A program made the translations under genes and the position numbers. A stretch of DNA of 48,520 nt, from NCBI GenBank assembly GCA_017545185.1, contig JAFWQJ010000021.1:1-48520 (forward strand). Direction: 5' to 3'. Under the pieces are notes generated by a model, which ran no database searches, was not told where the DNA came from, and saw only the letters and a program-made list of their open reading frames with translations. The stretch comes from Oscillospiraceae bacterium. GTDB lineage: Bacteria > Bacillota > Clostridia > Oscillospirales > Ruminococcaceae. This document shows, in pieces, positions 18,955 to 33,726 of this stretch. How positions within the stretch are numbered: position 1 is the first letter of the stretch; each line of letters starts with the position of its first letter.

Positions 18955-19614
18955 TCATTTTCCGGGCGTGCTCTGCGCATCGTCCCCGGCGGGATCTTCC
19001 GGCTTGTTCCTGATGAGCTTCTTTCCGAGCGGGATCTCCGTGCCGTTCCGGATGCGTTCGATATTGGGAATATGCTTGATAACGATGACCGCACTGACCG
19101 CCGCGATTGCGGCAGATTCCAGCAGATCACCCGTGCGCACGAAATGCCAGACCGGTATCAGCACCGCACAGGCGAGCGTCGCCAGCGCGATGTAGCGCGT
19201 CGTGAACAGCAGGATCGCCAGCACCGCAATGCATGCCAGAAACATGCGCCAGTCCACTGCCAGCGAAAAGCCCAGCAGCGAGGCAAAACCCTTGCCGCCC
19301 CGGAACTGCATCCAGAACGGGAACATGTGCCCGAGGATGACTGCGATGCCGGTCAGCACGGGAACATGCGTGCATTCCGCCGGAAGCGGGATCACATGCA
19401 GCAGCAGGAAAACCGGCAGAAACGCTTTCAGGATATCCGCCAGTGCAGTCGCTGCCGCCGCGCCCTTGCCCATGGTCACCAGCGCGTTTGATGCGCCCGC
19501 ATTGCCGGAGCCCTTCTTCCGGATGTCAAAGCCCTTGCATCTTGCGATGATCGCCGCCGTATTCAGATTGCCGATCAGATACCCCGCGGGTATCCAGAGC
19601 CAGTGTAAACTCAT
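18955..19614 (-). CDS. plsY: Glycerol-3-phosphate acyltransferase (acyl-phosphate)
   Basis: PlsY acylates glycerol-3-phosphate from acyl-phosphate, the first step of membrane phospholipid synthesis. The 219-residue protein has about five hydrophobic segments and all three family motifs: GSGNAGASN (about 36-44), GHMFPFWMQFRGGKG (about 94-108) and KHIPNIERIRNGTE near residue 184. A short hydrophilic tail follows. Its ATG overlaps the stop of the upstream c-di-GMP-type gene by 4 bp (ATGA), so it is translated in coupling with that protein. This is an unexpected link between lipid synthesis and a signalling protein. Confidence 0.95.
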   Translation of the reverse strand: MSLHWLWIPAGYLIGNLNTAAIIARCKGFDIRKKGSGNAGASNALVTMGKGAAAATALADILKAFLPVFLLLHVIPLPAECTHVPVLTGIAVILGHMFPFWMQFRGGKGFASLLGFSLAVDWRMFLACIAVLAILLFTTRYIALATLACAVLIPVWHFVRTGDLLESAAIAAVSAVIVIKHIPNIERIRNGTEIPLGKKLIRNKPEDPAGDDAQSTPGK

Positions 19615-22600
19615 TGGTTGATTGCCACCTTACTTTCTCCGCCTGTATGGACACAGTGCGACGGATCCGCCGCAAAATGCATTGCCTTGGCACTCTGGAT
19701 CGTCACATCGAGATCGGAGTCGATCACGAGCAGATCGGCGTCCGCCTCATAGCTGCCGAAGTCCATGGCGCGCATCCCCTCTGCGCGGATCTCTGCCTTG
19801 CAGTGCCGCAGGCTGATCTTCGGCGCGGAATCGCCCGAGCCCGCGATCAGCACATTCTGACCCGTCAGCTCCGCCGTGATCATCGAATCGCGCAGGAAGA
19901 TCTCTCCGCCGCCGGTGTGCGAGCCGATGCAGCTCACCGACGTACCCGAGCCGCGGAACGACAGGCTCGCCGTATTGCAGCGGACATTGGCAAAGCCCTC
20001 GTCCGTGCCGATCGCGGCGCAGTTTGCCATTCGCAGCGTGAAGTCCGCCTCACAGCCGGAAAGCGAGATCTCCGCGGTGCCGTCCAGCGTGCCGATGCCG
20101 ACACCGGTCTTGCCGCTCATCTCCACGAACAGCTTGGTGCCGAGCACGGAGATCTTCTGCCCCTTGCCGATGCCGGAGCCGATGCCGACGCACTGGTTGC
20201 CGTTTGTGATGATGTTCAGGCAGCCTGCCAGATCAATGCTGATGTCGCCGCAGGCAAAATCGGGGTCGTTGCCGATGACAAAGGTCTTGGTATCGTCCGC
20301 GCGGATGCTGAGATTGCCCTGACCCGTCAGGTGCAGGGAGCTCGATTCCGGCACAAGGATGCCGCCGGTATCCATGCGGTTGTCGCCGACGCATTCCAGC
20401 GTCACATGTGAATTTTTGCCGAGCGTCACGGCCGGCGAGACGATCTGCTGCGGTGCACTGAAGCGCGCCGTCCGCAGGATGATGTGACAGTCCGTATTGT
20501 CGCGGACCTTGATGTGGATGCCGCTTGCCTCGTTGAAATCACCGATGATCTCAAGCTCCGGCTGCGACACGAACAGGTCTGTATAATGCTCCGCTTCCAG
20601 CCGCGGCAGGTGCACGATCTCCTCGCCGGAGAGCATGTAGGTCTTCTGCATGATCTGCTTGGCGGCACTCGCGCTGAACTTGACGATCATCGCGGCAATG
20701 CGCTCCGGGATCGCGTCCAGCGGCGCGGCGTTCGGCACGGAGGTGAAATTGCCCTGAATGAGGTCTGCACCGAAGCGGATGACCGCACGCAGCTCCTCTG
20801 CCGTCTCGACGCCCTCTGCCAGCGCCATAAAGCCGTTGGCATGAGCAAATTCAATGATATTGGTGACGAAATGCTGCTTCTTCGGCTCCTCGTGGATGTT
20901 CGCGATCAGGCCGCGGTCGATCTTGACGTAATTCGGAGAATATTTCAGCAGATTCGTCACATTGGAATAACCGGTGCCGTAATCGTCAACGGCGATGTCC
21001 ATGCCGTGCTTCTGGCACCGCTGCTGGATCATCTGCAGTTCCTCGCCCTCGGTCTCCGCCTGCTCGGTGAACTCAACGACAAGCTGCGGGAGCAGATCGC
21101 CGTATTTTTCGCAGAGCTTCGTGAAATCCGTGTCATTGAGGAAATGCCCCGGGATACTGTTGATAAAGATGCGCCGCCCCTGGAATTTATCGCGGGAGGC
21201 ATCCGCATATTTCAGCACATTGTTATAGGTCAGCCACTCGATCTCATAGAGCCGCTTGGTCGCGGTCGCATGGGTCAGCAGCGCCAGCGGAGAGACCTTC
21301 AGGCCGCCGCTCGTGCGCATCAGCGCTTCGTAAGCGACGATCTGGCCGTTCTTTGCGCTGACGATCGGCTGGAAGAAATAGCTCAGCAGATTTTCGCTGA
21401 TGATGCGGTCCATCTGGACAGCATCCGCCTGTGAGACGACCGGCTTTTCCACGGCGCGGTTATGCATCCGCTGCTCGTCCTTGAGCGAGACGGCCTCATT
21501 CAGCAGCGACTCCAGCGATGTATGCTCCGTGACCTCTGCGGAGACCCTGCCGACGGAAATTTCCAGCGTATAGCTCTTGCCGGAAACCTGATTGTAGCTG
21601 ATCATGCGGCGCCGGAGCACGCTGATGAGTGCATCCGCCGTATTCATGCGGGTATCGGAATGGAACAGCGAGATCAGGAACTCGTCGCCGCTGATGCGCG
21701 CAGCGAGTGCGTCGCTGTCGATACTGTCGGTAATGGCATTTGCAAGGCTCAGCAGCGCCTGATCGCCCTCGTTCCGGCCGAAGATGCTGTTGATCTGCCG
21801 CAGGCGGTTCAGTCCGATCACGATCATGATGAGACGTTCGCCTGTATGGTTCTCCCCGTGGATGCGCTCGCCGAGCATCTTCATGACGCCGTGCAGATTG
21901 AGCATACCGGTCAGGGAGTCACGGATCCTTGCGGCCATGAGCTTCTCGTTCATTGCCTGCAGGCGGGAGGTCGAAAGGCTGCAGCCGATCGCATTGCCCG
22001 CGGTATGGATGAATTTCGGCAGGCGGAAGCTTTCCTCGTCGATATTGCTGCCGCAGAAGGCATAGTAGCCGTAGACCTCACCCAGCATATAAACGGAATT
22101 GACATAAACGGCCTTGCCGTCCGCGATGACCGCCGCCAGATCGGGGATCAGCTTGGAGCGCGGGATGATCGCGAACTGTTTTTCCGCGCGCTTGTGCATC
22201 ACCGTGCTCATCAGCTCGGAGGGATCCGCGAACTGCTGCAGACTGCTGTCGGTCAGCTCCGCACAGAGCGAATCGCGCAGGCAGAGGAACGAATCCTCCG
22301 GGATATAAGTGGACATGACGTCCAGATAGTCAATGACATTCGGAGACTTGCGCGCCAGCATATCGCCGAGCAGCCAGTGCTCCTCCGATTCCTGATAGAT
22401 GCATGCCTGCAGCTGATGATACAGACCGCGGAGCGCTTCGTTCTGGTCGCGGTGCTCGGTCACGCGGCAGCCGCAGGATTCGGAGATCCGAAGGACCGGC
22501 TCTATGCGGGTCTTTTCGTCCACCTCCGCACCGCTGAGGATCAGCTCCGCGGTGTCAAAGGTCGCCGCACAGAGCTTCTGATAATCCTTGAGACAGGTCG

Positions 22601-23330
22601 TCAGGCGCGGGGAATGGAAATGCTCCTTGATGATGCCGTCCGAGCCGGTGACGATGACATCCTCCGGCACGCGCAGACCGTGCCTGCGGAGCACGGAGCA
22701 GACCGCGATCGCCATTTCGTCATTGACGCAGACGATCGCCTCGGGCGTATCGTAGGCCAGAAAGCGCTCTGCCGCATCGGTCGCGGGACCGTCCCAGTAA
22801 TTGCCGTAATCAAGGCGCTTTTCGTCGAACGGGATGCCGTATTTGCGCAGCGCCTCGCTGTAGGCCATGACCATGCACTCGGAGCCGTAATGCCCGCGGA
22901 TGCCGCTCATCAGATTAACGCGCTTACAGTGATGATCGCCGAAAATATGATCCAGCAGCTTCCCGAATGCCTGATAGGAATAGGAATATACCGACGGGAC
23001 ACCGTCCATGCAGCCGTCATAGCTGAGCAGCGGGATATGATGCTCCTTCGCCAGTGCAGTTATCATATCCGATACAATGCCGCGGTCGATCGTCTCGTGC
23101 ATGACGACGATCATGTCCACGATCTGGAACGGGATCAGGTCGAACACGCTGGCGCTGCTGACCTCCGGGATCGTCCGGGGCTGCAGATTGGTATCCAGCC
23201 CGGAATTGAATACGAGCACGCCGTAGCCGCGGGCGTGTGCCTCGTGGACAAACGCCTTAACACTTTCCAGTATCTCCGGATTCTGGATCCGGGATGTGCA
23301 GAGCGCAAACAGCAGCCGGTCATTCAGCAT
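19611..23330 (-). CDS. Sugar-sensor, GGDEF, EAL and beta-helix fusion protein
   Basis: The 1239-residue protein has no signal peptide or membrane segment, so it should be cytoplasmic. Order of parts: LacI-type periplasmic-binding fold without helix-turn-helix (about 5-285); linker region (290-460); GGDEF domain (about 465-625); EAL domain (about 635-885); repeat domain (about 905-1239). The GGDEF domain has SGDEF at 547-550 and GLN where the metal-binding D-x-D normally lies (506-508), so cyclase activity is doubtful. The EAL domain keeps its ligands: YEALMR, INSIPG, VEFTE, DDYGTGYSN, KIDRGLI and AEGVET. It should hydrolyse c-di-GMP. The tail is about seven repeats of roughly 28 residues, each starting with an IG[S/T]-like turn and then a short beta strand, like a right-handed beta-helix. 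The start has GGGGGG upstream. Coupled to plsY downstream. Confidence 0.85.
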   Translation of the reverse strand: MLNDRLLFALCTSRIQNPEILESVKAFVHEAHARGYGVLVFNSGLDTNLQPRTIPEVSSASVFDLIPFQIVDMIVVMHETIDRGIVSDMITALAKEHHIPLLSYDGCMDGVPSVYSYSYQAFGKLLDHIFGDHHCKRVNLMSGIRGHYGSECMVMAYSEALRKYGIPFDEKRLDYGNYWDGPATDAAERFLAYDTPEAIVCVNDEMAIAVCSVLRRHGLRVPEDVIVTGSDGIIKEHFHSPRLTTCLKDYQKLCAATFDTAELILSGAEVDEKTRIEPVLRISESCGCRVTEHRDQNEALRGLYHQLQACIYQESEEHWLLGDMLARKSPNVIDYLDVMSTYIPEDSFLCLRDSLCAELTDSSLQQFADPSELMSTVMHKRAEKQFAIIPRSKLIPDLAAVIADGKAVYVNSVYMLGEVYGYYAFCGSNIDEESFRLPKFIHTAGNAIGCSLSTSRLQAMNEKLMAARIRDSLTGMLNLHGVMKMLGERIHGENHTGERLIMIVIGLNRLRQINSIFGRNEGDQALLSLANAITDSIDSDALAARISGDEFLISLFHSDTRMNTADALISVLRRRMISYNQVSGKSYTLEISVGRVSAEVTEHTSLESLLNEAVSLKDEQRMHNRAVEKPVVSQADAVQMDRIISENLLSYFFQPIVSAKNGQIVAYEALMRTSGGLKVSPLALLTHATATKRLYEIEWLTYNNVLKYADASRDKFQGRRIFINSIPGHFLNDTDFTKLCEKYGDLLPQLVVEFTEQAETEGEELQMIQQRCQKHGMDIAVDDYGTGYSNVTNLLKYSPNYVKIDRGLIANIHEEPKKQHFVTNIIEFAHANGFMALAEGVETAEELRAVIRFGADLIQGNFTSVPNAAPLDAIPERIAAMIVKFSASAAKQIMQKTYMLSGEEIVHLPRLEAEHYTDLFVSQPELEIIGDFNEASGIHIKVRDNTDCHIILRTARFSAPQQIVSPAVTLGKNSHVTLECVGDNRMDTGGILVPESSSLHLTGQGNLSIRADDTKTFVIGNDPDFACGDISIDLAGCLNIITNGNQCVGIGSGIGKGQKISVLGTKLFVEMSGKTGVGIGTLDGTAEISLSGCEADFTLRMANCAAIGTDEGFANVRCNTASLSFRGSGTSVSCIGSHTGGGEIFLRDSMITAELTGQNVLIAGSGDSAPKISLRHCKAEIRAEGMRAMDFGSYEADADLLVIDSDLDVTIQSAKAMHFAADPSHCVHTGGESKVAINQ

Positions 23331-23392
23331 CAGGTATCCCCCCTTTCTCCTATATGTATGGAAACTGTGCTTACATACGGATAGTTATATTT

Positions 23393-23586: not shown

Positions 23587-23638
23587 AAAAAAAAGGTAGA
23601 ATGTTGACATGCCGCGCGGAGGGGAGGCGCAGTGCATT

Positions 23639-24361
23639 ATGAATTATTATGTGGATATCCATGCGAATCTTCTGCCGGGGCTGGCGGGTCTCGGCGGCGG
23701 AACGCTGACCGGGAAGGAAGCGGAAGAAAGGCTCGCCGTGTTTCAGGAGAGCAACATCAAGCTTGCGGTCGCCGCGCCGTATTACGATCCGGAGCAGCGC
23801 ACGCCTGAGACATTTGTCGCGCAGCGGGATGAGAAGATCGCCGCACTGGAGCAATGCGGCGTGCCCGTGCGGATCGTCGGCGGTGCCGTGCTGCCGTTTT
23901 CCTACTGCATGGAATCGCCGCGGCAGCTGAAGCCGTTTACGATCGGTTCCTCCGGGTATTTCCTGATCGACCTGCCGGATGCGCCTGTCACGGCGGAGCT
24001 CTGCGAGCAGCTGACCCGCCTGCGGATCGTCAGCGGTCTCTGCCCGATCGCGGCGGATGTGGACAGATACTTCGCTTCATGGTCGCCGGAGGACTGGATC
24101 GCGCTGAAGCAGACCGGGATCCTGCTGCAGATGTCCGTGAACGGCCTGCTCTGTCAGGAGCACCGGAAGCTTGCAATCTATCTGCTGGCCAATCAGTACG
24201 CGCACCTGATCGCGACCGGCTCGCGTGCGATCACAGAGACGCTTTCCTTCGCAGAGGCCATGCGCATCGTGCAGCGCAGCCTGCCGGCGCAGTATTACCG
24301 CAGAGTGAAAAACAATGCAGGCATGCTGCTTTCCGATGCAGAGCCCTCTGCATTCCATTGA
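23639..24361 (+). CDS. Degenerate CpsB/YwqE-like PHP protein, probably inactive
   Basis: The 240-residue protein follows the whole length of CpsB/YwqE, the PHP-fold tyrosine phosphatases that control capsule polymerisation. The metal ligands are mostly lost. The family DIHxHxLPxxDDG reads DIHANLLPGLAGLGG, so the second His is Asn10 and the Asp pair is gone. TPHH becomes APYY (46-49), the E of the PGQE-type turn becomes Val84, AHPER becomes ADVDR (139-143) and ASDAH becomes ATGSR (192-196). The fold core and C-terminal NNAGMLL match. It was probably an enzyme and may now bind a partner or phosphopeptide. Start chosen at 23639, where GGAGGGGAGG lies upstream. It has its own promoter and terminator and diverges from the EAL gene. 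Confidence 0.75.
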   Translation: MNYYVDIHANLLPGLAGLGGGTLTGKEAEERLAVFQESNIKLAVAAPYYDPEQRTPETFVAQRDEKIAALEQCGVPVRIVGGAVLPFSYCMESPRQLKPFTIGSSGYFLIDLPDAPVTAELCEQLTRLRIVSGLCPIAADVDRYFASWSPEDWIALKQTGILLQMSVNGLLCQEHRKLAIYLLANQYAHLIATGSRAITETLSFAEAMRIVQRSLPAQYYRRVKNNAGMLLSDAEPSAFH

Positions 24362-24466: not shown

Positions 24467-27400
24467 TCAGGTTTCCTCAACAGGGAACGCCATGATGCGC
24501 TTGGCAATGAACATCAGAATGACTGTGACATCCTGAATGTCCGTATTGCCGTCGCCGTTGACGTCGCCGTTGATGACGCCGATGTCCTTGATCGTCGCAG
24601 TGACATCGCCGACTGCAAACCGTGCGACCAGAACCGCGTCAGAGACGTCAATGCTGTTGTCGCCGTTCGCGTCGCCGGGCTTATAGCCGGGACGTTCCTT
24701 CGGATCCTGCGGGGTCTGCGGGGTTTCGGGCGTCTCTGTCTTTTCCGTGACGGTCAGCTTTGCAGCGCCGGATGTCACTCTGCCGCTGTGGCCGCCGTCC
24801 GTGATGACGCAGCGGTACAGGTAGCCGTCCTTTTCCGGAGAGGCTTCAACGGTCAGCTTGTTGGTGCCGTCGGAATCCACAGCCATCCAGTTTTCGCCGC
24901 CGTCCCAGGAATACATCCAGTGGTAATCAAGCTCGTATTTGCCTGCTGCGTACACGGCAAATACTGCCGTTTTGCCGTCCTCGGCCGTTGCGTCCTTCGG
25001 GTCGGAGAGAATTGCAACAAGGCGGCCCTTGCGCACGATGTCCAGCAGCGGCTGGTTGCCGTTTTCAACAATGTCAACCTTGTCCCAGTCGGAATCCTCA
25101 CCGATCAGGTAGGCCTCTGCGAGGGCTGCACAGCCGCTGAAGGCGCCTCTTTCGACCGTTTCCAGCTCAGAGGAGAAGGTGACGGACTTGATAAAGGCCA
25201 GACCGTTGAAATAGTTTTCGGGAATGACAGTGCCGCCTGTGACAACCACTTCATTCAATACCTTTGACACGTTGCTGTTGTATGCACCGAACAAGTCCCT
25301 GAACACCCAGTTGACTTTCTTGGTTCCGAGATTGAATGCCGGGATCGTCAGCTTTTCCAGTGCACTGCATTCGCTGAACCAGCAGCTGCTCTCTGCATCC
25401 GCACATTTGACATTCGCACCGAAATACGCTTCCTTCAGTGCAGTGCAGTTCTGGAACGCATAGGAATAAACCGACGTTTCCTGAATGCCGGGAACACAAA
25501 CAGAGGTGATCTTATAGCAATCCTTAAAGCTCTGATGTCCGATCAATGTGACCGATTCCGGAATCTGCAGATCGCCGAACTCTGCCGCGGTGCATCCGTT
25601 GAATGCACCGGCACCGATCGTTGTCAATGTCTCCGGGAGAGGTGCGGAACGCAGATTTGTACAGCCTGCAAATGCACTGTTGCCGATCTCCGTAATATTA
25701 TCCGGATACGTTACATTCTTCAGCTGGGAAAGTCCTGAAAAGTAATACGGCGGAATGACGGTGCCGCTGAGAACGGTTACATCTGTCAGCACCTTCGGAA
25801 CATCGCTGTTATAAGCGCCGAACAAATCTCTAAAGACCCAATCGATCTTCTTGGTTCCGACATTGAATGCCGGGATCGTCAGCTTTTCCAGTGCACTGCA
25901 TTCGCTGAACCAGCAGCTGCTCTCTGTGTCCGCGCATTTGACATTCGCACCGAAATACGCTTCCTTCATTGCAGTGCAGTCCTGGAACGCATAGGAATAA
26001 ACCGACGTTTCCTGAATGCCGGGAACATAAACCGAGGTGATCTTGAGACACTCCTTGAAGCACTGATGTCCGATCAGCGTGACCGATTCCGGAATCCGCA
26101 GATCGCCGAAGGCTGCCGTGATGCATCCGTTGAATGCACCGGCATCGATCTTTGTCAGTGTTTCCGGGAGAGGCGCGGAACGCAGATTTGTACAGCCTGA
26201 AAATGCACTGTTGCCGATCTCCGTAATATTATCCGGATACGTTACATTCTTCAGCTGGGAAAGTCCTGAAAAGTAATTCGGCGGAATGACGGTGCCGCTG
26301 AGAACGGTTACATCTGTCAGCACCTTCGGAACATCGCTGTTATAAGCGCCGAACAAATCTATAAGAACCCAGCTGACCTTCTTGGTTCCGACATTAAACG
26401 CCGGGATCGTCAGCTTTTCCAGTGCACTGCATCCGCTGAACCAGCAGCTGCTCTCTGCATCCGCGCATTTGACGTTCGTATTCAGATATGCTTCCTTCAT
26501 TGCAGTACAGTTCTGGAATGCATAGGAATAAATCGATGTCACATTTTTGCCGGGAACAGAAACCGAGGTGATCTTGGTGCAGTCTTTAAATGTCTGAAAT
26601 CCGATCGTCGTGACCGATTCCGGAATCTGCAGATCGCCGAATTCTGCCGCGCTGCATCCGTTGAATGCGCCGTTACCGATCGTTGTCAGTGTTTCCGGCA
26701 GCTTGAATGTCTGCGTGGTATCCGTCTCACCGCCGTAGCGCAGCCACTTCAGGCTTTCACAGCTGCTGAATGCAGAATCGCCGATTGCAGTAAGGCGTGC
26801 CGGCATGTAAACGACCTCAAGATTCTTCGAGCCCGAGAACAGCTTGTTCGCAATGTTGTTGATGTACAGACCGTCCGACGGATCCTGATCCATGAACACG
26901 ATCTCAAGGATCTGCTTGCGGACTTCAGCCGGGATCGACACATTTGGATCCATGTCGCCGTAGCCGTAAACCAGGAACGAGCCGTCATTGTTGAACATGC
27001 CGGAGATATGCTCGCCCAGATCATAGGTTTGATTCTTTTTGTTGAGCAGCTCTGCCGACGGGATCTTGTCGGAATAATCAAAGACAAACGGCTCCGTGAT
27101 ATTCGGCTCCGTCACAGTCGTGATCGCCTTGCCGGTCTGAATGTCGCCGTTATCATAGGTCGGCTTGCCGGTGCCGGTCTGCGGCCATGTGAGTATGACC
27201 GGGATATCCACCGTCGTTTCGTCGATTTTGAACGACTTGCTGGTCTTCCTGTCAGAGCCGACAGAAACGGTATAGGTGTAAGCCGAGCTGCGCGGCATTG
27301 CGTAAAGCACCAGCTTGTCGCTCGTGACATCAAAGTCCGTTCCGTCCACATTCACCTTGATGCCCAGCTGCGGAATGTTCGCAGGCGCATTTCCGAGATA

Positions 27401-29356
27401 GAAATTGAACGTGACCCGGAAAGCCTTGTGCGGGCATTCGGTTTCCTGCCCGTCCTCCGCCTTCACAAAGTTGAACTTTATGCCCTTGTATACGCCGCTG
27501 CTGTTCTGAGACAGATACATGTCATAGACAGGCAGCTTATGGCCGAGAACCGAATCAAATTCCTTTTCGTATTCCTTAGAGACCTTCAGCTTATCTGCGC
27601 CGATCTTGTTCAGCATCTTTCCGAAGCCGCTCTTGGAATCCTTGATATCGAAGCCCGCAGAGACCTCTGCGCCGATCACGAGCTTCAGCTCCAGATGGAT
27701 CTTCAGGCACTTCTCGTCACAGTGGATCGTATCCGAGGATGCGGCCGGATCCGGCAGGAACACGCTGTTGCCGGTCTTTTTCAGCGTTTCAAATGTACCG
27801 TTTTCCGCCTCGACGGACGCGGTACCCTTCAGGCCGCCGGTGACCGAAGCCGTCAGCAGACCCTTCAGTGCCTTGATCTCGACACCGATCTTGACCTCCA
27901 GGGAGAATTCCACCTGTGCCTCAAATTTCTTCAGGATCGGATTGGTATCAAACATAATAAATTCCAGTCCGTCCTTGGAATCGAAGACAAAGCCCTTCGT
28001 GAACTGCAGACCGACTTCAAGCTCAACCACACCGTCGAGATCAATCTCAACATCACCGATGAAGTTGACGTCCACAGCACCGTTCGTGTAGATCGGGAGC
28101 TCGATCAGATGATCCTTCTTCTTGTCGTCCTCTTCCTCTTTTTCCTCTTTGTCGGTCTCCGCCTTCACATTGATCGTGACCTTGGTCTCTGTTACAAGAA
28201 ACAGGTTCAGATAATGGAACTTCTTGTAAACATTCCATTTGGTCGTGACCTCATAATTCAAAGACGGCGTGATCTTGATCGGAGCTTTGCCAAGCTGGAA
28301 CTCCGTGGAACAAGAGTTCTTTTTGGTATACTCCGAGAGTTCTGCATCCGGATCCACAGCCTTCAGTCTGTCGTTCAGCTCATCCTCATTGCTGATCACC
28401 TGCGCATTGACGCTGTGATACGGAGCCCCGTAATACTCGCCTTCGACCGTCTGCTCGGTCTCGGATTCGATCTTGATAAAATCGAACATGTCGTCGATCT
28501 CGCCGGTACCGGTGATTGTTGCGGTGTCGCCGTCGATCACGATTTCCTGAATGTCGGTCGAGATGATGTCATTCTCCGTCGGCTGGATGTAGAAATACTG
28601 CCCCTTTTCCAGCGAGCGGATGCTCTCGTCGATGTGATCGAACACGTAAATGTTCTGATCGTAGTCCGCGGAAACGAGGACATTGCTTTCCTCAGTCGTC
28701 TCCGCACGGACGGTGTCCTCGGAGAGCACGATGAAGTTGGTCGTCTCGTCCTCGTCGAGGTTGACGACCTGCTCCGGTGCAAAGTCCGAAGCCTCCGTCT
28801 GAATGATCTCCTGCATCTCGCGGTTATAGGTCTTGATCTCAAACGCCTTGCAAAGCGGCAGACCCGCTCTGCCGATGAGCTGCACGCTGACCGTGAAGTA
28901 TTCCGGCAGCTGTGCGGGATCCGCGCTGAATGTACTGTGTACATATTCGCCCGCCGGCACACCGTAGTCAACGGTATACACATTCGCAGGGCTGTCCTCA
29001 TCAATGAACGATGCGCGCAGCGTCGCAGCCTCGCTCTGCGTCGAAGTCACCTGAACGATGCCGGTCTCCCGGTCAAAATCCAGATTCGTTACCGCATAGA
29101 CCGCATCTGCTGCCGCGGCCTTCAGCGGCTGTGCTGTGGGCTTTGCCTCTGCAGCCTGTTCCGTACCCTGCCTTGCCAGATACCTTGCCAGGGAATTGGA
29201 ACCTGTCAGTCCCATTTCCTCCTGCACGCCTGTCGATGCGGCCGGCAGCTGCTCCTCCTCCTGCGCCGTGTTCCTGCTGCTGAACGGAGCATCGTACAGC
29301 AGTGTTGTAGCGCACATGACTGCGCTCAGAACACCGGCAATCGTTTTCTTTACCAT
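24467..29356 (-). CDS. Giant secreted LRR protein with type I dockerin
   Basis: This 1629-residue secreted protein has a signal peptide (about 1-28, VKKTIAGVLSAVMCATTLL). A long beta-rich N-terminal half (to about 840) is shared with the paralogue at 29561-33697 and begins YAVTNLDFDRETG. BspA-type LRRs span about 850-1440. Three near-identical 177-residue units (DNA 25109-26701) lie within them. An Ig-like domain follows (about 1445-1540, with YHWMYSWDGGENW), then a dockerin (about 1560-1625) with loops DANGDNSIDVSD and DVNGDGNTDIQD. I chose the ATG at 29356 because AGGAGAG precedes it and the signal peptide starts there. The dockerin implies cellulosome attachment. No catalytic domain is visible, so binding or adhesion is the likely role. 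Confidence 0.88.
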   Translation of the reverse strand: MVKKTIAGVLSAVMCATTLLYDAPFSSRNTAQEEEQLPAASTGVQEEMGLTGSNSLARYLARQGTEQAAEAKPTAQPLKAAAADAVYAVTNLDFDRETGIVQVTSTQSEAATLRASFIDEDSPANVYTVDYGVPAGEYVHSTFSADPAQLPEYFTVSVQLIGRAGLPLCKAFEIKTYNREMQEIIQTEASDFAPEQVVNLDEDETTNFIVLSEDTVRAETTEESNVLVSADYDQNIYVFDHIDESIRSLEKGQYFYIQPTENDIISTDIQEIVIDGDTATITGTGEIDDMFDFIKIESETEQTVEGEYYGAPYHSVNAQVISNEDELNDRLKAVDPDAELSEYTKKNSCSTEFQLGKAPIKITPSLNYEVTTKWNVYKKFHYLNLFLVTETKVTINVKAETDKEEKEEEDDKKKDHLIELPIYTNGAVDVNFIGDVEIDLDGVVELEVGLQFTKGFVFDSKDGLEFIMFDTNPILKKFEAQVEFSLEVKIGVEIKALKGLLTASVTGGLKGTASVEAENGTFETLKKTGNSVFLPDPAASSDTIHCDEKCLKIHLELKLVIGAEVSAGFDIKDSKSGFGKMLNKIGADKLKVSKEYEKEFDSVLGHKLPVYDMYLSQNSSGVYKGIKFNFVKAEDGQETECPHKAFRVTFNFYLGNAPANIPQLGIKVNVDGTDFDVTSDKLVLYAMPRSSAYTYTVSVGSDRKTSKSFKIDETTVDIPVILTWPQTGTGKPTYDNGDIQTGKAITTVTEPNITEPFVFDYSDKIPSAELLNKKNQTYDLGEHISGMFNNDGSFLVYGYGDMDPNVSIPAEVRKQILEIVFMDQDPSDGLYINNIANKLFSGSKNLEVVYMPARLTAIGDSAFSSCESLKWLRYGGETDTTQTFKLPETLTTIGNGAFNGCSAAEFGDLQIPESVTTIGFQTFKDCTKITSVSVPGKNVTSIYSYAFQNCTAMKEAYLNTNVKCADAESSCWFSGCSALEKLTIPAFNVGTKKVSWVLIDLFGAYNSDVPKVLTDVTVLSGTVIPPNYFSGLSQLKNVTYPDNITEIGNSAFSGCTNLRSAPLPETLTKIDAGAFNGCITAAFGDLRIPESVTLIGHQCFKECLKITSVYVPGIQETSVYSYAFQDCTAMKEAYFGANVKCADTESSCWFSECSALEKLTIPAFNVGTKKIDWVFRDLFGAYNSDVPKVLTDVTVLSGTVIPPYYFSGLSQLKNVTYPDNITEIGNSAFAGCTNLRSAPLPETLTTIGAGAFNGCTAAEFGDLQIPESVTLIGHQSFKDCYKITSVCVPGIQETSVYSYAFQNCTALKEAYFGANVKCADAESSCWFSECSALEKLTIPAFNLGTKKVNWVFRDLFGAYNSNVSKVLNEVVVTGGTVIPENYFNGLAFIKSVTFSSELETVERGAFSGCAALAEAYLIGEDSDWDKVDIVENGNQPLLDIVRKGRLVAILSDPKDATAEDGKTAVFAVYAAGKYELDYHWMYSWDGGENWMAVDSDGTNKLTVEASPEKDGYLYRCVITDGGHSGRVTSGAAKLTVTEKTETPETPQTPQDPKERPGYKPGDANGDNSIDVSDAVLVARFAVGDVTATIKDIGVINGDVNGDGNTDIQDVTVILMFIAKRIMAFPVEET
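25109..26701 (-). repeat. Three tandem 531-bp coding repeats
   Basis: Units at about 26171-26701, 25640-26170 and 25109-25639 encode 177-residue LRR blocks, each opening LPETLT and containing NVKCADAESSCWF and ALEKLTIPAFN. Long stretches are identical at DNA level, for example around AAGTCCTGAAAAGTAAT, seen at 25730 and 26261. This shows recent duplication or gene conversion. Confidence 0.9.
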
Positions 29357-29379
29357 AGCTGTCTCTCCTAAATGATATT

Positions 29380-29406
29380 TTGCAATATTTTGTTGTAATA
29401 TTGCAA
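29380..29406 (-). promoter_or_regulatory. Inverted repeat at the transcription start of the LRR-dockerin gene
   Basis: TTGCAATATT and AATATTGCAA are perfect 10-bp arms with a 7-base loop. The repeat begins 7 bp after the -10 box. The paralogous gene has a related repeat (CTGCAATATT...AATTATTGCAG) at the same distance. Confidence 0.72.
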
Positions 29407-29413
29407 TGCGTAA

Positions 29414-29442
29414 ATTATAGCACGGAACCTTCATTTTGTCAA
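29414..29442 (-). promoter_or_regulatory. Promoter of the 1629-residue LRR-dockerin gene
   Basis: TTGACA (29437-29442), 17 bp and TATAAT (29414-29419) on the minus strand. Both boxes are perfect. Confidence 0.92.
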
Positions 29443-29489
29443 GTATCCTGCGTAAAAACAATCTGTAAAGCTTTTGTGAACAAAAAAAT

Positions 29490-29560: not shown

Positions 29561-32500
29561 TCATTCTGTCTCGTTCACGGGAAACACCGATATCCGCTTT
29601 GCAATAAACTGCAGGATCAGCGTGATATCCTCGAGGTCTGCCGTGCCGTCGCCGTTGACGTCCGCATTGATGACACCGAGATCCGTGATCTTCGCATCGG
29701 AATCGCCGACGGCAAACCGCGCGATCAGGACAGCGTCGCTGACGTCGATCATTCCGTCACCGTTCGCATCGCCGGGGTGATAGCCGTCCGGATGCTGCCG
29801 CCGCACCAGACGCAGCAGCGGCTCGTTGCCGGTCTCCCGGATATCCACATGATCCCAGTTGTTTGTGCGCGTACCGTACAGGCGCGCCTCCGCGAGTGCT
29901 TCGCAGCCGTTGAAGGCGTTTTCCTCCACGCACTTCGTGTCTCTGGAAACGGTCACGGATTCCAGCGTATTCATACCTGCAAAGAACCAGCCCGGCACCG
30001 TATCACCGGAAAGAACCGTCACCTTTTTCAGGGTTTCGGGAATGTATCCGTTGACGCGGAAGCTTGAAAATACCTGATACATCCCCGCATCCGGCGACAG
30101 GGTGAAATATGCGCTGATGCCGGGCGGCTGCAGGTCGGTTTCCGCGACACTGTAAAACGGGATCGTCAGCTCCGCGATCTGTCCGCAGCCGGAGAACACA
30201 AATGGCTGAACCGTCTGCACGCCGCTGCCGAGCTCTGCCTTCCGGAGATTCGCGCAGTTGCCGAACGCGCTCATGCCGATCGTTGTCGTGCCGCTGCCCG
30301 GGACATTCAGTGCGGTGATCCCCGCGCAGCCGGAGAATGCATTTGCACCGATCTGACTGACCGTTTCCGGAACTGTCAGCTCACCGAACGGAATCGTCTT
30401 GCAGCCGGAAAAAGCGTCCTTTCTGATCTCCGTCAGATTCTGCGGGAGCGTAAATGTATCGAGATTCACGCAGCCCTTGAAAGCCTGCCTTCCGATGACG
30501 GCAGTATCCGCCGGGAGATTCAGCGTGCGCAGCGAGGTCATGCCTGCAAAGAAGTCTTCCGGGACCTCCGTGCCGCCGGTGACCGTGACGGTCGTCAGCG
30601 TCTCCGGGACATAGCCGTTCACGTGCCAGCTCGAAAAGACCTTATACATCCCGTCAACAGGGGTGCTGCTGAAAAATGCGCTGATACCGCCGGGCATACT
30701 GTCGGTATGTGTAACGGAGTAGAACGGAACGGTCAGCGCCTCCACATGATTGCTGCCGCCGAAGGTATAGGCATCCACCGTTCTGACGCCGCTGCCGATC
30801 ACGGCCTTCCTCAGATTCGTGCAGCTGCCGAACGCGCTCATGCCGATTGCTGTCTGACCGTTTCCGGGCACATCCAGTGCAGTGATGCCGTTGCATCCGC
30901 CGAACGCATAAGCACCGACCGAAAGCACGCTCTGCGGAACGGTCAGCTCTCCGAACACAGCGGCACTGCATCCGCTGAATGCGGATTCCCCGACCGATTC
31001 CAGCGTTTCCGGCAGAACAAAGGTCTCTGTTTTGTCGTTTTCGCCGCCGTAGCGCAGATATTTCAGGTTCGTGCAGTTTTTGAACGCATTGCTGCCGATC
31101 TGTTTCAGACGCTGCGGCATGTAGACCTTTTCCAGCGCCTTCGCGTTCATGAACAGGCCGGATGCGATATCATTGATATAAAGTCCGCTGTCCGGATCCA
31201 GATCCTCAAAAATGACCGTGCGGATCTCTGCGCGGATGCTCTCCGGCACAGATGCGTTCCCGTACATATCGCCGTATCCGATCACGTTGAATGTTCCGTC
31301 ATTGCTGAACATGCCGGAGATATTTTCGCCGAGGTCGTAATACTGCGAAACAGGCGTGATCATGTACTTTGCGGGATACCTGTCGGAATAGTCAAAGACC
31401 GGTTCCGGCTCTTCCGTGACGGCTGTGGTCGTTGTTGTCAGAGAAGGCCCTGCAACCGGCTTTCCGGTGCTGCAGACGATCTCCGTGGAACCGTCGTCGT
31501 TTTGCTGCCATGTGATATTGTCGTAGAGATCGACAACGGCATCCGTGACCGTAAAGCTGCCCTTTGCTTTTTCCTCGCCGTTGATCAGAATCTGATACTC
31601 ATAATTCTGATTTTTCCTGCGCGGGACTGCATACAGCACAAGCTCGCTGTCCGGACTGACATCAAGCTGATAGACTGCACCGCCGACCTTCAGCCGCGCT
31701 TCTGACGGTACATCCGCCGGCACATTGGTAAAGCTGACATGGAATGTCGTTTTATAGGCCTTCATCGGGCATTCGATCTTTGATTCGTCGCCGTTTGACG
31801 GCATCTTCATCAGATAGAAGTGCAGTCCTTTGTAATCGCCGCCGGAATTATAGGAGCAGTATGCCGCATAATGCGGGAGCGGGTGACCGAACAGGCTGTC
31901 AATTTCCTTCCGGATCACATACTCAAATTTCAGCTTATCCTTCAGCTTTTCAAAGATATTCTTGGGGTCTTCAAAACGGAAGCCGATTTCGATCTTTGCC
32001 TGAACCAGCAGCTTGATTGAAAGCTCCTCCTTCAGACAGGTCTCGCAGGCATGAACCGTATCCGCACCGCCGCTGTCCGGCACTGCAAAGATATTCCTGC
32101 CTTCGGTCGGACAGGTTGAGATATCGTCTGTGCTGACAGATGCTTCCCCGCAGATGCCGCCCGCAACAGAAGCCGTCAGTATATCACCCAGCGCGCTGAC
32201 CTCCGCACCGACCCGCAGTTCAAGTCCGAGGGTGCCCTTCATTTCAAACTTGACCAGCTTCAGGTCTGTATCAAAGCTGATGGAATCGAACCCGCTGTCG
32301 GAATCGTATGTAAAGCCTTTGGTAAACTTCTTCCCAAACGCAATGTCCAACTCCGCTTCGATTTTCAACTCGACGTCCACAAACGCATAAATGTTGATCG
32401 CACCGTCTGAAAACAGCGGGAATTTCACCAGATGCTCATCATTCCCGACCGCATCCATCCCGGGTTCTGTTCCGGGCTCCGTCCCGTCGTTGTTATCGGG

Positions 32501-33697
32501 ATCCTTTTTGTCGTTCAGCTTCACATTCAATCCGCCTGAAATTGTCGTTTCCGCCACAAAAAAGATGTTTATGTAGCTGAAACACTTATAACAGTTCCAT
32601 TTGGCGGTCGTTTCAATCGTTAAGTTCGGTGTCAGCTTAAAGGTCTTCTTCTTGGACAGGATCTCTTTGCTCACCGTGAATGAGCTGTCAAGCTCCGTGA
32701 ATTTGGTATTCGGATCCAGCGCCCGGAGCTCCTCTTCCTTCTGTTCCAGCTCATTCTCGCTGCCGATGCCCTGTACACGGATGCTCCGGTAGCTGCGTGC
32801 GCTTTCGGAATCCGCAGCGGTCTGCGCCGTATCAATCTCCATCTTGATGAAATCGAACATGTCGCCGATCTCACCGGAGCCGGTGATCGTTGCCGTGTCT
32901 CCGTCGATCACGATCTCCTGAACATTCGTGGAAATGATGTCGGTATCCGTCGGCTGGATGTAGAAATACTGACCCTGTTCCAGTGTGCGGATGCGCTCGT
33001 CGATGTTGCCGAACACATAGATATTCTGATCGTAGTCCGCAGAAACGAGGGTGTTGCTGACTGCCGTCGTCTCCGCTCTGACCGTGTCACCGGAGAGCAC
33101 GATGAAGTTTGTCGTCTCATCATCATCGAAATTGACGACCTGCTCCGGCTCGAAATCCGAGACATCTTTTTCGAGGATCTCCTGCATTTCCCGGGTAAAG
33201 CGGTTCAGCACGAACGGCTGACCGACCGGCAGGCCGATCCGGTTGACAAGCTGCGCCCGGACCGTGAAGTATTCCGGCAGCAGCGCGGGATCCGCGGAAC
33301 CGAAGGACTCAGAATATTCTCCTGTCCTGACCGGGATCTCCGTCTTGTAAATGTTCGCAGGATGATCCTGATCCGCGAACGAAACGAGCAGCGAGCAGTC
33401 CTCACTCTGCGAGGATACGGCGCGGATCAGACCTGTTTCACGGTCGAATTCAAGATTCGTCACGGCGAAAAGGCACTCCGCGGCTTCCGCCTTCAGAGGC
33501 TTCGGCTGCTGCTGATTTCCCTGCTGCGCCAGATAGCGCGCAAGGGAGTTGCTGCCGCGCAGACCGGGTTCCGTACTGTCCGGTGCGGCGGCCGGGGGCT
33601 GTTCCTGTACATCATGTCTGCTGAATTGCGCATCGGAAAGAAGCGCGGATGCACACAGAACTGCACTGACCATACATGCGATGGTTTTTTTGAACAA
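29561..33697 (-). CDS. Giant secreted LRR protein with type I dockerin (paralogue)
   Basis: The 1378-residue protein has the same layout as its downstream paralogue: signal peptide, long beta-rich N-terminal half (opening LFAVTNLEFDRETG), BspA-type LRRs (about 850-1280) in two diverged large units, and a dockerin (about 1310-1375) with DANGDGMIDVSD and DVNGDGTADLED. It lacks the Ig-like domain and the third LRR unit. The start is best taken as TTG at 33697: AGGAG lies 8 bases upstream, and translation then begins MFKKTIACMVSAVLC, which aligns with MVKKTIAGVLSAVMC of the paralogue. The GTG at 33706 overlaps the ribosome binding site. It has its own promoter with a 5' inverted repeat, and a terminator. 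Probable cellulosomal binding or structural protein. Confidence 0.87.
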   Translation of the reverse strand: MFKKTIACMVSAVLCASALLSDAQFSRHDVQEQPPAAAPDSTEPGLRGSNSLARYLAQQGNQQQPKPLKAEAAECLFAVTNLEFDRETGLIRAVSSQSEDCSLLVSFADQDHPANIYKTEIPVRTGEYSESFGSADPALLPEYFTVRAQLVNRIGLPVGQPFVLNRFTREMQEILEKDVSDFEPEQVVNFDDDETTNFIVLSGDTVRAETTAVSNTLVSADYDQNIYVFGNIDERIRTLEQGQYFYIQPTDTDIISTNVQEIVIDGDTATITGSGEIGDMFDFIKMEIDTAQTAADSESARSYRSIRVQGIGSENELEQKEEELRALDPNTKFTELDSSFTVSKEILSKKKTFKLTPNLTIETTAKWNCYKCFSYINIFFVAETTISGGLNVKLNDKKDPDNNDGTEPGTEPGMDAVGNDEHLVKFPLFSDGAINIYAFVDVELKIEAELDIAFGKKFTKGFTYDSDSGFDSISFDTDLKLVKFEMKGTLGLELRVGAEVSALGDILTASVAGGICGEASVSTDDISTCPTEGRNIFAVPDSGGADTVHACETCLKEELSIKLLVQAKIEIGFRFEDPKNIFEKLKDKLKFEYVIRKEIDSLFGHPLPHYAAYCSYNSGGDYKGLHFYLMKMPSNGDESKIECPMKAYKTTFHVSFTNVPADVPSEARLKVGGAVYQLDVSPDSELVLYAVPRRKNQNYEYQILINGEEKAKGSFTVTDAVVDLYDNITWQQNDDGSTEIVCSTGKPVAGPSLTTTTTAVTEEPEPVFDYSDRYPAKYMITPVSQYYDLGENISGMFSNDGTFNVIGYGDMYGNASVPESIRAEIRTVIFEDLDPDSGLYINDIASGLFMNAKALEKVYMPQRLKQIGSNAFKNCTNLKYLRYGGENDKTETFVLPETLESVGESAFSGCSAAVFGELTVPQSVLSVGAYAFGGCNGITALDVPGNGQTAIGMSAFGSCTNLRKAVIGSGVRTVDAYTFGGSNHVEALTVPFYSVTHTDSMPGGISAFFSSTPVDGMYKVFSSWHVNGYVPETLTTVTVTGGTEVPEDFFAGMTSLRTLNLPADTAVIGRQAFKGCVNLDTFTLPQNLTEIRKDAFSGCKTIPFGELTVPETVSQIGANAFSGCAGITALNVPGSGTTTIGMSAFGNCANLRKAELGSGVQTVQPFVFSGCGQIAELTIPFYSVAETDLQPPGISAYFTLSPDAGMYQVFSSFRVNGYIPETLKKVTVLSGDTVPGWFFAGMNTLESVTVSRDTKCVEENAFNGCEALAEARLYGTRTNNWDHVDIRETGNEPLLRLVRRQHPDGYHPGDANGDGMIDVSDAVLIARFAVGDSDAKITDLGVINADVNGDGTADLEDITLILQFIAKRISVFPVNETE

Positions 33698-33726
33698 TGC
33701 GGTCACTCCTTTTGGAATATTATGTT

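Follow-up and report, generated by a model that had tools for sequence, protein, structure and literature searches.

What would a bacterial signalling protein do with a beta-helix attached behind its catalytic domain, and how widely is such an arrangement found? The question is raised by a gene of an Oscillospiraceae bacterium, located in the window (the whole stretch of 48,520 nucleotides analysed here), which encodes a LacI-type binding fold, a GGDEF domain, an EAL domain and a long C-terminal tail in a single protein. To our knowledge, few studies have dealt with cyclic di-GMP (c-di-GMP) signalling in the Ruminococcaceae of gut and rumen, and a conserved, unnamed domain on an active-looking EAL would provide a handle on it. 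In public annotation such proteins may go under the bare name 'EAL domain-containing protein'.

Domain architecture and condition of the signalling domains

The features of the locus are collected in Table 1. Pfam places Peripla_BP_3 at residues 137-281, GGDEF at 470-613 and EAL at 642-865 of the protein, with no match beyond residue 866. AlphaFold2 models of residues 1-640 (pLDDT 84.7) and 440-1239 (pLDDT 86.1, pTM 0.48) contain, in order, the binding fold, an alpha/beta domain, a long helix, GGDEF, EAL, a helix at 876-891 and the strands of the tail. An earlier note on this DNA had described four parts in a row, and all four were recovered by Pfam and the models together, but its list had passed over the alpha/beta domain at about residues 293-455. 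That domain gave no convincing PDB profile match (best E 0.053), and calling it GAF-like would be a guess from its strand order only. Read by eye, the 1239 residues contain neither a signal peptide nor a membrane helix, from which we infer a cytosolic protein. The third-position GC of the gene is 0.80.

Table 1. Positions of features in the window
Feature	Position	Strand	Remarks
plsY (glycerol-3-phosphate acyltransferase)	18955..19614	-	PF02660, E 4e-45
Whole gene: binding fold, alpha/beta domain, GGDEF, EAL, beta-helix tail	19611..23330	-	1239 aa, ATG start
Tail, predicted beta-helix, residues 897-1239, 28-residue coils	19614..20642	-	Model and turn spacing
Helix 876-891 linking EAL and tail	20658..20705	-	AlphaFold2 model
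EAL phosphodiesterase domain, residues 642-866	20733..21407	-	Nine ligand/catalytic residues intact
GGDEF domain, residues 470-613	21492..21923	-	Metal site lost
SGDEF, residues 547-551	21678..21692	-	First residue G in 26/29 copies, S in 3
G506 codon, replaces metal Asp of D-x-D	21813..21815	-	G in 29/29
Alpha/beta domain, residues 293-455, long helix at its end	21966..22454	-	AlphaFold2 model
LacI-type binding fold, residues 1-288	22467..23330	-	No helix-turn-helix
M153 codon, aligned with the conserved Arg of LacI-type sensors	22872..22874	-	Alignment to ancestral LacI structure 9nt3
Likely ribosome-binding site, purine-rich	23341..23350	-	By-eye reading, ahead of ATG
Divergent CpsB/CapC-type gene, upstream	23609..24361	+	PF19567, E 5e-13

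The gene was found in 29 of the 30 genomes of the genus, its own included (28 whole, one interrupted by contig ends), and the sole genome without it is 88 per cent complete. The residue counts and identities given for the genus come from an alignment of these 29 copies. Near copies, at 25 loci, belong to metagenome assemblies of Ruminococcus sp., Oscillospiraceae and other Clostridia, many of them labelled rumen, omasum, rectum, horse faeces or pig. Mean identity to the protein of the window is highest in the EAL domain (0.775), followed by GGDEF (0.71), the binding fold (0.658), the tail (0.627) and the alpha/beta domain (0.59); the tail is thus conserved about as much as the sensor part.

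The EAL domain scores 163.9 bits in Pfam (cut-off 31.3). Nine residues (E668, N724, E753, E756, D782, D783, K803, E839 and Q859), which we take from RocR to be its ligand and catalytic residues, are intact in the aligned columns of all 49 tail-bearing proteins, that is, the 29 genus copies and the 20 other EAL-tail proteins described below. The intact ligands claimed previously are hence confirmed well beyond the single protein, and they point to an active c-di-GMP phosphodiesterase. The same genome carries four EAL domains.

The GGDEF domain is in a different condition. The D-x-D site reads G506-L507-N508, and the metal aspartate is missing from every genus copy. The earlier note had called the domain dead and listed two features, the lost aspartate, which stands, and an SGDEF motif. 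By itself the motif is a local variant and no sign of death, most of the copies reading GGDEF at this point; elsewhere, domains with SGDEF can be active. Within the same signature, E550 is replaced by V in one of the 29 copies. The RxxD inhibitory site is absent, with position 538 mostly D and 541 A, V, I or M. N514 and D523, presumably equivalent by PleD numbering to its guanine contacts, are retained in 29/29. Judged from these residues, cyclase activity is very unlikely and GTP binding is possible. A lost metal aspartate next to retained guanine contacts would match the pattern of GTP-sensing degenerate GGDEF domains such as FimX, which offer a precedent for control by GTP (PMC8846402).

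A LacI-type periplasmic-binding fold at the N-terminus is supported by Pfam and by structure comparison of the model. It starts without a DNA-binding domain, as had been proposed, since Pfam finds no helix-turn-helix and the first strand of the fold already lies at residues 7-12. It differs from LacI/CcpA effector-binding domains in this absence and in its ligand Arg: the column of M153, which we take to be that of the conserved Arg used on sugar by LacI-type sensors (LacI R197), holds M in 27 copies, V in one, L in one and Arg in none. In six of six paralogues, comprising four GGDEF proteins from this genome (L002-L005) and two EAL-tail systems (L065 and L041), the column holds Arg. D204 is retained in 28/29 copies and D231 in 26/29, suggesting that the fold may still bind some small molecule; with M, V or L in the Arg column of all 29 copies, the label 'sugar' for that ligand goes beyond the evidence. 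The four same-genome paralogues are themselves LacI-fold plus GGDEF proteins, of which L003-L005 retain D-x-D and GGDE while L002 lacks the first Asp and the signature.

The tail and its secreted relatives

The tail had been described as about 330 residues of IG[S/T] repeats. In the model its strands extend from about residue 897 as far as 1237, apart from a single short helix (908-913), and pLDDT averaged per ten residues is 70-92 over 900-969 and 91-97 over 970-1239; at the pTM of this model, its placement relative to the EAL is not predicted. GIG[ST]-like turns at residues 1078, 1106, 1134, 1162 and 1190 follow each other in 28-residue steps, and across the 49 tails 28 is the commonest turn spacing (73 cases), ahead of 31 (42) and 29 (25). 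The previous description was therefore right about the turns and, at a tail length of about 340 residues, close in size, but slightly generous about the repeats, as residues 897-1016 lack the motif. A loose turn pattern occurs nine times (5.1 in shuffles; nine reached by 125/2000), and a narrower one, missing the G before IG, five times (0.8 in shuffles; five reached by 3/5000). Since the count depends on the pattern chosen, spacing and conservation carry more weight. Values of dN/dS of 0.02-0.30 in seven comparisons, rough figures with dS near 1 in several, suggest that the more than 330 residues of the tail are under purifying selection in the genus.

The tail is thus predicted to be a separate beta-helix domain, in line with the earlier note; the prediction comes without a fold match. 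Fold-search lists, obtained with models of overlapping parts of the whole protein, were filled by its GGDEF-EAL and LacI parts, and a few weak rows for viral right-handed beta-helices were not taken as evidence. NCBIfam gave no match to residues 888-1239 at E 5. Pfam searches of 21 tails returned scattered sub-significant rows only, from eight families at E 10; Beta_helix_3 was reached by none of the 21, Cthe_2159 was not matched, and bactofilin was not among the families, although weak matches may be filtered. Bactofilins are cytosolic beta-helix proteins and have that much in common with the predicted tail. Against the PDB by sequence, rows were at chance level for a single tail and likewise for a broader tail profile (A6). 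Nothing on the domain was found in the open-access papers searched. The tail is a conserved domain without a name in Pfam or NCBIfam and, as far as searched, undescribed.

Outside EAL enzymes, the tail has relatives among secreted-type proteins of the order. In a test of 12 sequences, a narrower tail profile (A3) matched four of six such proteins over the first half of the tail (L059, 4e-16; L060, 1e-14; L062, 1e-10; L061, 2e-8) and none of six shuffled copies. The tails and these proteins share a GDN...GI.VP...L.I.G.G.L stretch and GIG turns, and Beta_helix_3 was detected in 5/5 scanned secreted-type proteins at E 0.01 or better, above the cut-off in two. The secreted GIGGG beta-helix proteins have a leader by eye in L059, L060 and L062 (the others are cut) and carry SLH (L060) or carboxypeptidase-regulatory/SpaA-like (L059) domains, whereas the tail studied here has no leader and is fused to an EAL domain. 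It would appear to be a fold related to secreted beta-helix proteins that sits inside a signalling enzyme, which is unusual.

This kinship bears on the first interpretation of the protein, a phosphodiesterase that responds to sugar and whose tail adds a binding function, taken here as that of a carbohydrate-binding module. Its phosphodiesterase half agrees with the intact EAL residues and its sensor half with the clear LacI-type fold; one secreted relative has a sub-threshold match to the carbohydrate-binding family Cthe_2159 (E 0.034), and A3 touched 4peu, which we take to be Cthe_2159, at E 0.43. The 4peu match disappeared with A6, which also matched only 3/6 secreted-type proteins, and even A3 left L063 and L064 without a match. 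Sugar binding by the secreted relatives is itself putative, and the 'sugar-responsive' part is weakened further by the replacement of the ligand Arg throughout the genus. We consider this interpretation unlikely.

Distribution of EAL-tail proteins

The earlier note knew of no other protein with this tail on a GGDEF-EAL core. The tail is not unique: besides 28 further copies in the genus there are 20 other EAL-tail proteins, 14 of them with a GGDEF domain or a remnant of one ahead of the EAL. Among 295 genomes of the order, 18 matched A3 at E 1e-5: 12 strongly (E 3e-55 or better), each from the family of the window, and six weakly. Pfam EAL was present in 10/10 scanned of the strong matches, and the remaining two (L057 and L058) show EAL motifs and are, by reading, close to a scanned one. 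The six weak matches had no EAL within the available stretch (five of the six were scanned with Pfam); three have leaders by eye and the others are cut. The class (391 genomes) likewise gave 18 matches, 13 strong, which added two families, and five weak; the new strong matches show EAL motifs in 11/11 and Pfam EAL in 7/7 scanned. Only three matches were obtained from 398 genomes of the phylum, all already seen in the narrower searches. Around one of the added families, A6 matched 32 of 118 genomes, 30 of them strongly and all 30 in one genus, the presence of EAL having been checked solely in those previously seen.

The EAL-tail combination is recurrent, not singular, and occurs in three families of the class with five N-terminal arrangements: a binding fold and GGDEF (L119, L123, L124 and L125), a binding fold without GGDEF (L120, L121, L122 and L130), a GGDEF remnant without a binding fold (L126-L129 and L067-L070), a membrane start, by eye, followed by a GGDEF remnant (L071 and L072), and a short start only (L065 and L040). 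Pfam GGDEF is above cut-off in 7/20 non-genus proteins (L119, L123-L126, L070 and L072), and seven further remnants were recognised by alignment. The domain is missing from 6/20 and its signature is lost in 13/20; L125 alone keeps the signature, but without the second guanine contact. These alignments suggest that the GGDEF domains of the lineage have mostly decayed or gone, and that input domains vary while the EAL-tail unit stays.

About 90 bases upstream of L065, on the same strand, a separate gene encodes a binding fold and a GGDEF domain with intact D-x-D and GGDE. This gene pair is a split counterpart of the fusion in the window. A GGDEF-coding sequence also lies upstream of L040, its frame interrupted in that assembly. 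The result is a natural series (fusion with a dead GGDEF, its decay or deletion, membrane-bound forms, separation from an intact cyclase gene) that allows comparative tests of the GGDEF domain and the tail.

In a tree of the EAL domains only, the 49 tail-bearing sequences fall on one side of a branch (support 97/85) from five tail-less ones, whose own branches are long. All 49 tail-bearing proteins, and 0/5 of the tail-less, are matched by the tail profile. Distances between EAL domains agree with those between tails (Mantel 0.84; 0/999 permutations), as plain shared descent would also predict, and the identity of tails from other genera to that of the window is only 19-26 per cent.

Gene neighbourhood and possible function

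The stop codon of the gene overlaps the start codon of plsY by 4 bases. This overlap is found at 23 of the 29 genus loci; three others have gaps of 5-14 bases and one a gap of 277, so that plsY is present at 27/29 loci and lies outside the available stretch at the remaining two. None of the 18 flanks of EAL-tail genes outside the genus was found to hold plsY, so the coupling is confined to this genus. The divergent CpsB/CapC-type gene occurs at 15/29 genus loci, some being too short to tell. Other EAL-tail genes are flanked by ribosomal, DHH, DUF4236, LytR-CpsA-Psr or BTAD genes, and given such mixed flanks we do not claim that, plsY apart, these genes are linked to lipid synthesis. Fatty-acid synthesis genes lie beside L072 (accA and acpP) and near L125 (fabH), in two other genera, too few cases to judge. 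One Lactiplantibacillus paper (PMC13297897) reportedly names plsY, c-di-GMP and a phosphodiesterase together.

The genome, about 95 per cent complete, contains related GGDEF proteins and gave no match to PilZ, a domain matched in 5/14 control genomes. One MshEN domain (L143, C91:24926-25183), presumably with the c-di-GMP-binding motif, belongs to a type IV pilus ATPase of the PilB type and is the only candidate c-di-GMP effector found, which makes type IV pili the plainest candidate output. Such an output would fit gut bacteria that adhere to fibre. Searches for c-di-GMP riboswitches gave no match, but no control matched either.

The reading that we prefer, at a probability of roughly 45%, is that of an active c-di-GMP phosphodiesterase with the GGDEF domain as a GTP-binding regulator and a tail that docks or assembles the enzyme on a partner. 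The EAL domain would be tuned by a small molecule bound in the N-terminal fold and by GTP bound in the dead GGDEF domain. The tail would not be a catalyst but a rigid surface holding the enzyme on its partner, which might be a protein, a glycan precursor or another copy of the same enzyme; c-di-GMP would thereby be removed at one place, by an enzyme made together with PlsY. The domains, the intact EAL residues, the lost GGDEF metal site, the conserved tail and the plsY overlap are read from the sequence; the activity, the effect of GTP, the docking role and any link to envelope synthesis are inferences. In favour of this reading are the constancy of the EAL residues in every tail-bearing protein and the top identity of that domain, the retention of N514 and D523 beside the lost metal aspartate, the conservation and low dN/dS of the tail, the way the tail follows the EAL while input domains vary, and the frequent 4-base overlap; against it are the lack of a solved relative of the tail by sequence, the placement of the tail relative to the EAL, which the model does not predict, the long branches of the five tail-less EALs, shared descent as another source of the EAL-tail distance agreement, and the flanks outside the genus, in which plsY was not found. 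PA0861, FimX and CC3396 are GGDEF-EAL phosphodiesterases whose GGDEF is regulatory or degenerate; the present protein differs from them in its LacI-type input instead of PAS and in the beta-helix after the EAL.

Alternatively, the protein could be a trigger enzyme, its EAL reading c-di-GMP and its beta-helix serving as an output that grips or releases a target until hydrolysis resets it, as in PdeR of E. coli. The tail lies behind the EAL in 49/49 proteins whatever the N-terminal part, the intact cyclase paired with L065 is encoded by an adjoining gene, L126 and L127 have a BTAD transcription regulator upstream on the same strand, and the missing PilZ match points the same way. The MshEN domain would nevertheless be a possible ordinary effector, and the riboswitch searches count for little without a matching control. 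PdeR and PdeL resemble the protein in their active EAL with a possible output role but differ in architecture, and trigger phosphodiesterases work through direct and specific contact with a macromolecular target (PMC5052742). Overall we regard a trigger enzyme as improbable.

A still more doubtful extension would make EAL plus beta-helix a signalling module of Clostridia in its own right, in which a fold related to secreted proteins moved to the cytosol and became a c-di-GMP-gated output behind an active EAL, with GGDEF domains decaying in a host without a PilZ match, and in which translational coupling to PlsY in this genus would tie c-di-GMP to the supply of membrane lipid.

That the tail merely stabilises or dimerises the enzyme, with no particular partner, is the least probable explanation: EAL enzymes often function as dimers, the low identity of tails outside the genus to that of the window would suit it, and the tail profile matched only to position 282-319 of 379 in some genomes (G1118, G1165, G1167 and G581), which suggests shorter tails, but more than 330 residues under purifying selection, in a domain found in three families, seem a costly way to that end.

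Beyond our preferred reading of a docked phosphodiesterase, several neighbouring genes deserve mention. BTAD-type regulators are encoded directly upstream of the EAL-tail gene at L126:5214-6401 and L127:4999-6207. A DHH-family phosphoesterase (L120:7300-8775) begins about 9 bases after an EAL-tail gene stop; enzymes of this family can degrade the pGpG product. The gene directly upstream of the EAL-tail gene has a DUF4236-like start in L119, L124 and L125 (by Pfam in L119 only). In the window itself, two adjacent large genes on the reverse strand (24467-29461 and 29564-33706) have similar starts; in the first, Pfam finds BspA-type leucine-rich repeats and, at borderline score, a dockerin, which points to surface proteins of the cellulosome type.
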